NCBI GenBank assembly: GCA_009787835.1
Contig: WQSN01000032.1
Span: 244 to 33,425 of the forward strand
Length of the DNA: 33,182 nt
Direction of reading: 5' to 3'
DNA from: Treponema sp.
Lineage (GTDB): Bacteria > Spirochaetota > Spirochaetia > Treponematales > Breznakiellaceae
In this document: positions 1 to 1,311 of the stretch, in pieces
Layout: every line of letters starts with the position of its first letter
Numbering within the stretch: position 1 is the first letter of the stretch
Notes under the pieces: generated by a model
Told to the model about the DNA's origin: nothing
Seen by the model: only the letters and a program-made list of their open reading frames with translations
The model's database searches: none
Translations under genes and position numbers: made by a program

Positions 1-164
1 TTGCCCTCCGCAATGTTGGCAGGAATCGATACAGCAGCTCTCCTGATTTGACTGGTTAGTCCGTACATTTCCTCTTTCGGAAAATTTTTCGTTTCCAGAT
101 AAACCATCTCGACAAGATTCATCGCCTCCTGCCAAACTATTAAATCCTTGAAAGTTTCTATCAT
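1..164 (-). CDS. Four-helix-bundle protein of the 23S rRNA intervening-sequence (IVP/S23) family, nested in leuS, partial
   Basis: Starting at ATG 164 and reading 54 codons to the edge, the +1 frame relative to leuS encodes a very typical N-terminus of the IVP/S23 four-helix-bundle family. Diagnostic pieces are [13 protein letters not shown] (residues 5-17), [19 protein letters not shown] (28-46) and IPANIAEG (47-54). The family is known from ORFs inside intervening sequences of 23S rRNA in Leptospira and other bacteria, and is related to Avd of diversity-generating retroelements; its molecular role is poorly understood. A strong ribosome-binding site, GGAGAGGAG, ends a few bases before the ATG, so it can be translated on its own. 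It lies wholly inside leuS on the same strand, directly after a heptamer repeat tract. The usual family length is near 115-125 residues, so about half is missing beyond the window. Family call is firm; function is not inferred. Confidence 0.87.
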
Positions 165-1311
165 TATTGCTCTCCTCTCCGACTCCCGACTCCCGACTCC
201 CAACTCCCCTTTCTTTAGAGACTACCTCAACTATAGGTAAGTTAAACGCTAATGCAAACTCAAAATCCCTCTCATCATGTGCGGGAACTGCCATAATGGC
301 GCCTGTGCCGTAAGAAATTAAAACATAATCCGCTATCCAGATTGGAATCTTTTGATCGTTGACAAGGTTAACCGCGTAGGCGCCGCAGAAAACGCCGGTT
401 TTTTCCTTGGCAAGATCGGTGCGTTCAAGATCGCTCTTGCGCGCGGCTTTTTCGATGTATGCGGTTACTGCTTGTTTTTGTTCCGCGGTTGTAAGTTTTT
501 CAACTAACGGATGTTCGGGAGAGAGTACCATGTATGTCGCGCCGAAAAGAGTGTCGGGGCGCGTTGTGTAGATTTCCAATGAGTCAGAGTGACCGTCTAT
601 CCTGAAGGTAACATTCGCGCCTTCGCTGCGGCCAATCCAGTTGCGCTGCATAAGTTTTACAGGTTCAGGCCAGTCAAGAGTATCAAGATCAGCTAACAGG
701 CGTTCAGCGAAAGAAGTGATTTTTAGTATCCATTGGCGTATACGTTTGCGCGTAACTTTCTCGCCGCAGCGTTCGCATAAGCCGTCCTTCACCTCTTCAT
801 TGGCAAGGCCGGTTTTGCAGGACGGGCACCAGTTGATAGGGCTTTCAGCTTCGTAGGCAAGACCCTTTTCAAAAAGTTTTAAAAATATCCACTGCGTCCA
901 GCGGTAGTAATCTTCGGTTGATGTATCAACCTCACGATCCCAATCGTAAGAAAAACCCAAAGCCTTTAGCTGATAACGAAAACGCTCAATATTGGACGCA
1001 GTAGTAACAGCGGGATGTGTACCGGTTTTTATCGCGTAATTTTCAGCGGGAAGACCGAAAGCGTCAAAGCCCATGGGGTGCAGCACATTGTAACTGTTCA
1101 TGCGAAGGTAGCGGCAGTAAATGTCTGTAGCCGTATAACCTTCGGGGTGTCCCAGATGTATCCCCTGCGATGACGGATACGGAAACATATCAAGCACATA
1201 TTTGCGTTTGTCTTTGGGAACTGTTGGATCTTCAGTTGTTTTAAAAGTTTTGTTATCACTCCAAAACTTTTGCCATTTAGGTTCGATTGTATCAAAAGGG
1301 TATTTTGCCAT
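1..1311 (-). CDS. leuS: Leucyl-tRNA synthetase, 5' part, with an insertion in the editing domain
   Basis: Class Ia aminoacyl-tRNA synthetase that charges tRNA-Leu in the cytoplasm. The first 437 codons are in the window and the gene runs off the left edge. Visible are the HIGH-type motif HLGH at residues 52-55 inside [15 protein letters not shown], a zinc-ribbon-like pair CPSC...CERC, and the CP1 editing domain with [14 protein letters not shown] and [20 protein letters not shown]. Homology is lost after LPIVEVV (residue 364). From about residue 365 to the edge the frame stays open but reads as Ser/Gly/Asn-rich sequence unlike LeuRS, which fits an insertion in a loop of the editing domain. 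A second protein frame is nested in that insert. The KMSKS half must lie outside the window. ATG at 1311 has no Shine-Dalgarno sequence, but TATAAT lies 8 bases upstream. Identity is certain; whether the full protein is functional cannot be judged here. Confidence 0.93.
181..208 (-). repeat. Four tandem 7-base repeats at the start of the leuS insert
   Basis: On the leuS sense strand the units are GGGAGTT then three GGGAGTC, followed directly by GGAGAGGAG, which serves as the ribosome-binding site of the nested IVP gene. The tract sits at the point where LeuS homology ends. A related heptamer pattern occurs in rimO at 19922-19976. Heptamer tandem repeats of this general kind are known as STRR elements in cyanobacteria; whether these are related is not known. 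Confidence 0.85.

Follow-up and report, generated by a model that had tools for sequence, protein, structure and literature searches.

An IVP/S23 element nested out of frame within leuS of a Treponema genome and within other bacterial protein genes

In the leuS gene of a Treponema sp. metagenome-assembled genome from a termite gut, an IVP/S23 gene flanked by inverted heptamer arms overlaps the leuS reading frame one base out of phase, and the leuS frame runs through the whole insert without a stop. This insert is very likely an IVP/S23 intervening-sequence element lodged in a protein gene, where it would code in two frames, be translated through and be able to move. The IVP/S23 family has been known for more than 25 years as intervening sequences of 23S rRNA, of unclear function. 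Our findings place members of the family at home in essential protein genes, with a testable rule of tolerance under which one frame codes and another is merely open. They offer a clear natural example of two overlapping coding frames in a putative mobile element, and they account for insertions of about 150 residues in the synthetase, activase and restriction-enzyme genes described below.

The leuS locus and its nested gene

The window, the whole stretch of DNA analysed (33,182 nucleotides), corresponds to positions 244-33425 of contig C32 of genome G000, and 243 more bases of C32 lie to its left. The features at the locus are listed below in window coordinates unless stated otherwise.

1..164, minus strand: first ~54 codons of the nested IVP/S23 four-helix-bundle gene, ATG at 164-162 (PF05635, TIGR02436)
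172..180, minus strand: SD-like GGAGAGGAG of the nested IVP gene
179..209, minus strand: left arm of the element, heptamers of GGGAGTN type, inverted relative to the right arm (direct reading)
C32 ~18-49, left of the window: right arm of the element, CCCCACTCCCCACTCCCTACTCCCC (direct reading)
1..213, minus strand: pass-through stretch, in which the leuS frame stays open across the element in frame -1 relative to the IVP gene (from the 521-codon open frame)
214..1311, minus strand: N-terminal part of leuS, codons 1-366, with the catalytic core and the start of the CP1 editing domain (TIGR00396, PF13603)
1470-1542 and 1816-1888: tRNA-Gly(ccc) and tRNA-Arg(cct) genes, which adjoin leuS

The leuS part on C32 matched TIGR00396 with 574.7 bits, up to profile position 385, and its editing domain was matched by PF13603 in Pfam. 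By reading, V364 (codon at window 222-220) is the final LeuS-like residue ahead of the insert, which agrees with a preliminary description of this DNA that had ended LeuS homology at residue 364 in the editing domain. The same description had reported an IVP/S23 gene with its own ribosome-binding site in the +1 frame. This was confirmed: the ORF lies one base out of phase with leuS, in its +1 frame, with the SD-like site ahead of its ATG, and it scored above the curated cut-offs of both family profiles (PF05635, 136.1 bits against 33.8; TIGR02436, 128.6 bits against 24). With such scores the ORF is not a chance frame. By sequence, it is homologous to the solved S23 four-helix bundles 2gsc (E 5.4e-28) and 2rld (E 5.9e-5).

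The full IVP gene (L006:51-464, minus strand) runs beyond the window to C32:51 and ends with TAG. The complete element covers approximately C32:16-452 and consists of the IVP gene between inverted arms of 7-bp repeats (GGGAGTN/NACTCCC). Terminal inverted repeats around the window's IVP ORF are present by reading, in a copy that contains N, and the copies of relatives fold as strong RNA hairpins (z -6.8 to -7.2). Leftward extension showed that leuS homology picks up again directly past the right arm, where the protein restarts with FTGDG. C32 ends 15 bases into the resumed leuS. Contig C44 begins within the IVP gene and continues FTGDGYSINSG to the leuS stop; its part of leuS matched TIGR00396 with 521.8 bits, starting again at profile position 367. 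The two contig ends have 101 identical bases in common, the join itself is unassembled, and the IVP gene on C32 carries several N's. Across the whole element, the leuS frame contains 0 stops (row L007) and forms a 521-codon open frame (L006:1-1563, minus strand).

Within the LeuRS editing domain, the element occupies a variable loop. In three leuS genes, G, S, P, Q, N, D, E, K, R, T and A make up 78-81% of the pass-through peptide, counting for G000 the in-window part. An AlphaFold2 model of LeuRS with the insert (20 rows) had a mean pLDDT of 46 and values of 25-30 in the insert; the insert was among its least ordered parts, in a model too poor to interpret further. The insertion of about 150 residues would probably be a disordered surface segment of LeuRS.

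Two termite-gut Treponema MAGs, found among 26 IVP loci in named genomes, carry an IVP element at the same leuS loop, in single ORFs of 992 (L053) and 973 codons (L055). Within the genus, leuS was above cut-off in 36 of 39 genomes, and comparison of these 36 loops, with and without the insert, found it in three, namely G000, G007 (L055) and G008 (L053). The other 33 have short and variable IVP-free loops, for example AEKPEAGKDYSGEPQECTAADG. A target-site duplication was not definable in the leuS, activase, valS, ileS and trmD loops when compared with relatives; these loops are hypervariable. The patterns used to locate them found 5 of 31 trmD, 9 of 13 valS, 7 of 9 ileS and 28 of 31 activase loops; for the three activase loci missed, later reading covered the complete loop in one and part of it in two.

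Some relatives have unusual leuS genes. The IVP-free loops of L094 (G002) and L107 (G022) are atypical in sequence (EPIAENREQGTVFTGDG and VPQKQDVTLNNTILHSSFTTDG, respectively) and are without the usual EPAECT; they are possibly scars of earlier insertions. In L095 (G028), one TAA separates two same-frame leuS pieces of 279 and 586 residues, a possible error or pseudogene.

Other host genes, the open host frame and selection

From 95 hits above 40 bits, removal of short and duplicate entries left 71 distinct IVP genes (at least 80 model positions, 40 bits). Ten of the 71 lie in an open spanning ORF, a proportion that is not a frequency because the sample was built up by searching with PF05635 and the IVP of the window itself. 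Their hosts are the three leuS genes, a CoA-dehydratase activase, four restriction-modification enzymes and a histidine kinase, and one IVP lies just upstream of a pilin motif. The seven hosts besides leuS are as follows.

L054: activase, with BcrAD_BadFG before and DUF2229 after the insert
L056 and L057: two type ISP restriction-modification enzymes
L135: MmeI-like enzyme, with the insert between the TRD and the C-terminal domain
L137: DNA methylase that looks like type III Mod; no Pfam match covers the segment following the insert, which we take to belong to the same host
L147: hybrid histidine kinase
L058: IVP 5' of a pilin methylation motif, with just 35 open codons ahead of it; the element possibly precedes the gene proper

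Domains of the same gene were found on both sides of the insert in 7 of the 10 (three leuS, L054, L057, L135 and L147), and Pfam host domains on one side only in L056, L137 and L058. Four IVP-bearing hosts (L056, L057, L135 and L137) resemble restriction-modification enzymes, a possible sign of tolerance or of shared mobility. The occurrence of the element in unrelated host genes of several phyla supports the suggestion of the preliminary description that the family, or the element that carries it, can insert into protein genes. Its further suggestion of a little-described mobile element is in line with the distribution across hosts, which points to probable mobility; no transposition event and no transposase was identified.

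The remaining 61 IVPs were classed by the frame rule described below. Three with suspicious flanks (L071, L234 and L141) were read by eye and rejected as intragenic IVPs with a closed host frame, their neighbours being different genes by reading. Six others of the 61 (L274, L070, L261, L146, L064 and L144) were flagged for long antisense frames. No rRNA was matched by Rfam in the 28 IVP loci scanned (20 of them other IVPs), and the window's element is located in leuS, not in a 23S rRNA helix. The host ORFs had no intein family among their Pfam hits. A phage origin was considered and not retained, with 8 pattern matches and 0 relatives confirmed in viral contigs and no relative confirmed in phages.

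All ten nested IVPs have the same frame relative to the host (-1), the host codon beginning one base ahead of the IVP codon. The -1 frame contains 0 stops in each of the ten nested genes and 3-17 in each of the other 61, and the +1 frame of the nested genes contains 10-16. An open spanning ORF was the criterion by which nested genes were identified, so their zero stops are partly ascertained. A stop in the -1 frame arises only where a wobble T is followed by a codon starting with AA, AG or GA, so that a host-frame stop can be avoided without changing the IVP protein. By the same reasoning, ATG followed by A is unavoidable in the +1 frame, which leaves the -1 frame as the one open to evolution.

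Wobble T was counted at the stop-making junctions where T was possible. It occurs at 0 of 181 such junctions in the ten nested genes and at 622 of 1347 in the other 61, and at the remaining junctions of the nested genes it occurs at 192 of 541. Given the T frequency of the gene concerned, the probability that T is absent ranges from 4e-6 to 7.5e-3 per nested gene. The product over the ten genes is 10^-35.6, a value that ignores shared ancestry and recognition by openness. In the seven-member clade described in the next section, 13 of the 14 columns that always stand before a critical codon vary, among A, C and G only and never T, which makes shared ancestry alone insufficient to explain the pattern; in 5 of the 14 the encoded residues all exclude T, and a further 2 are mixed. 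The absence of T at stop-making junctions amounts to stop avoidance in the host frame.

The most likely course of events is the following. The element would land in a surface loop tolerant of insertion, and in needed genes only those insertions whose -1 frame continues the host frame stop-free would survive. Ribosomes would read straight through to give a LeuRS with a floppy segment of about 150 residues, some would start at the internal SD-like site to make the IVP protein, and the element, perhaps with a part played by that protein, would spread between tolerant loops and species.

If the element were instead removed at the RNA level, by splicing or ribosome bypass, leuS would be made without the insert. 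We judge this improbable. The hairpin-plus-ORF anatomy is like that of the 23S rRNA intervening sequences (IVS) removed by RNase III (PMC4990558), and the hairpins of the relatives are strong. However, RNA removal would make host-frame stops harmless, yet the ten genes have none and T is missing from every stop-making junction. RNase III leaves rRNA cut, which in an mRNA would be a broken message, and in 8 loci no intron family matched at the Rfam gathering score, a tRNA being the exception among matches.

Less probable again is a LeuRS made as two pieces, with the element giving the break and the restart. A split LeuRS exists in Aquifex, and the hairpin resembles an RNase III substrate, but the frame is open without a stop and the open-frame rule also holds in unrelated hosts, such as the MmeI-like enzyme and the histidine kinase.

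We give equally little credence to the window's IVP as a dead relic in leuS with selection acting on the host frame only, although L147 is such a case, its IVP frame truncated with TAG and its host frame still open. In the window's clade, the differences concentrate at third positions of the IVP codons (27/13/60% at positions 1/2/3 over 21 pairs of the seven members), and conservation is much stronger in the IVP frame than in the host frame, with identities of 81-86% against 43-55% among the four Treponema members. Both results indicate that it is the IVP that is conserved and that the host frame has only to stay open; the main-clade IVP protein is, on these substitution patterns, under purifying selection. 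The least credible alternative is an assembly chimera or pseudogene, suggested by the end of C32 just past the element, the ambiguous bases there, the estimated 8.36% contamination of G000 and its two valS genes: the agreement of the contig ends and the lack of a second leuS above the TIGR00396 cut-off in G000 speak against it, and the identical structure at the same loop on unbroken single contigs in L053 and L055 led us to reject a chimera.

Phylogeny of the IVPs and the short heptamer palindromes

A tree of the 71 IVPs placed seven nested members in one clade (100/99) that includes Spirochaetota, Bacteroidota and Fibrobacterota, a distribution that suggests transfer between phyla. L135 and L137 fall in another supported group together with stand-alone IVPs, and the tree leaves L147 without a resolved placement. 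The nested label needs 3 changes on this tree, at least 2 of them forced by supported branches, with gains and losses indistinguishable. The IVP of the activase (L054) falls among those borne by leuS, with L055 as its closest neighbour (100/81), and G036, the genome it comes from, has an empty leuS loop. In a tree of 31 LeuRS N-terminal parts, which through pattern misses is without G002, G005, G016, G022 and G036, G000 is not grouped with G007 and G008, and at least 2 changes are forced. The leuS loop may thus have been hit more than once. Taken as a whole, the trees are consistent with an IVP element that moves between tolerant loops and species.

The arm pattern also occurs without an IVP gene. 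In G000 it gave 73 hits (overlaps counted, one mismatch allowed) against 0 for the reversed control. With at least 40 open codons on either side as the test, 8 of the 14 G000 sites besides leuS are in frame: 4 of the 10 two-armed short sites, with 6 not, and all 4 one-armed sites. The in-frame hosts, named by Pfam, are an ATP-grasp protein (two sites), IleRS, the activase, ValRS, an MrfA-like helicase, an N-terminal extension before FlhB, and TrmD; both arms are present only in the activase, ValRS, helicase and TrmD sites. Elsewhere in the genus, 18 of 38 rows are in frame, including 5 of the 14 two-armed ones, in putative hosts. In the activase, the short element of G000 and the IVP element of G036 start at the same base and so have a common left junction. 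The IVP-less palindromes may be deletion derivatives or passengers of the IVP element system.

The loops concerned carry other insertions as well. The activase loop of G008 has a short palindrome of its own, and several relatives (loci L302-L320) have other repeat-like inserts there, among them a strong hairpin, CACAGAGG..CCTCCGTG, in L305 and GAACAGG and GAGCAGG repeats in L313 and L314, as if several palindrome families used one landing loop. In the ileS loop that holds one-armed heptamer repeats in G000, G007 (L292) carries a longer insert of its own (GSRGRGIGSGEVSPRATL...). G000 contains two different valS genes (C13 and C127), one with the palindrome and one without, which fits its contamination estimate.

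Across genomes, the five with at least 16 exact pattern hits (G000, G004, G007, G008 and G036) include all four that have a nested-clade IVP. This link between heptamers and IVPs has a Fisher p of 6e-5, with the cut and the grouping picked after the counts were seen. It weakens to p 3e-4 when G016 is added, a genome with a strong stand-alone IVP and no pattern hit, to p 0.002 if the seven genomes that exceed the Pfam cut-off are counted, and to p 0.011 if all ten with any match are. The strongest short periodicity at the 26 IVP loci is 7 bp in 22, 8 bp in 3 and 6 bp in 1; of 520 random stretches drawn from these loci, 79 have their peak at 7 bp. In a larger set, the 7-bp periodicity was found in 52 of 69, and in 36 of 69 the upstream and downstream flanks matched as inverted repeats with a score past the 99th percentile for permuted pairs. 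The tie between the IVP protein and palindromes of 7-bp repeats is a lead on the role of IVP/S23.

Relation to known elements

The nested IVPs belong to the same protein family as the S23/IVP ORFs in the 23S rRNA IVS of Leptospira, Coxiella and Brucella, and the element is likewise about 430 nt long with a terminal stem around its ORF; the Coxiella IVS also has heptameric repeats before the S23 ORF, and older proposals held that this ORF aids mobility (PMC4990558). The hosts differ: the rRNA host needs no open frame, whereas the leuS element sits in a protein gene that is kept stop-free. The Coxiella S23 ORF is thought to be decaying and its protein unmade (PMC4990558), in contrast to the purifying selection that the nested-clade IVP is under.

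Palindromes in frame in conserved protein genes are already known from Rickettsia palindromic elements (RPE), ERIC and NEMIS and other intragenic MITEs, and the short heptamer elements resemble them in this respect (PMC10969869, PMC2229807). The passages cited from these two sources describe none with its own protein gene in a second frame, and the short heptamer elements differ from RPE, here compared by description only, in their arms of tandem heptamers and in a linked protein-coding partner, the IVP. An IVP element that maintains both frames inside protein genes is probably new; in-frame palindromes and IVP-bearing rRNA IVS were known before. No description of IVP/S23 inside protein genes was found in the open-access literature searched, a scope in which few subscription papers fell.

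Cyanobacterial STRRs are tandem heptamer repeats. Of 38 plasmid records matched, 8 cyanobacterial plasmid IVPs were inspected and all 8 peak at 7 bp, like STRRs in having tandem 7-bp repeats in their arms, with identity as the same element putative. These 8 IVPs are intergenic by annotation and have 6-12 stops in the -1 frame. In two cyanobacterial plasmids (L369 and L370), the IVP gene lies between cas6 and cas4 of CRISPR loci. We put forward tentatively, and with more doubt than confidence, that IVP/S23 proteins serve the mobility or maintenance of widespread transposase-free, heptamer-armed palindromes, comprising the rRNA IVS, the intragenic palindromes and perhaps the cyanobacterial STRRs, and that one dual-coding lineage would have spread through protein genes across phyla by means of a synonymous stop-free host frame.

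A related four-helix bundle is the Avd/bAvd protein of diversity-generating retroelements; PF22296 (bAvd) matched the IVP protein with 33.3 bits, under its cut-off of 40, and no reverse transcriptase was seen on reading the sequence surrounding the nested IVP. Distant PF05635 hits in four other genomes of the genus (L129 in G030, L131 in G014, L132 in G010 and L134 in G007) lie, by reading, near reverse transcriptase-like ORFs, and the upstream proteins of L132 and L134 end in SSGWFWSSSQ-like motifs; these four loci look like diversity-generating retroelements with Avd.
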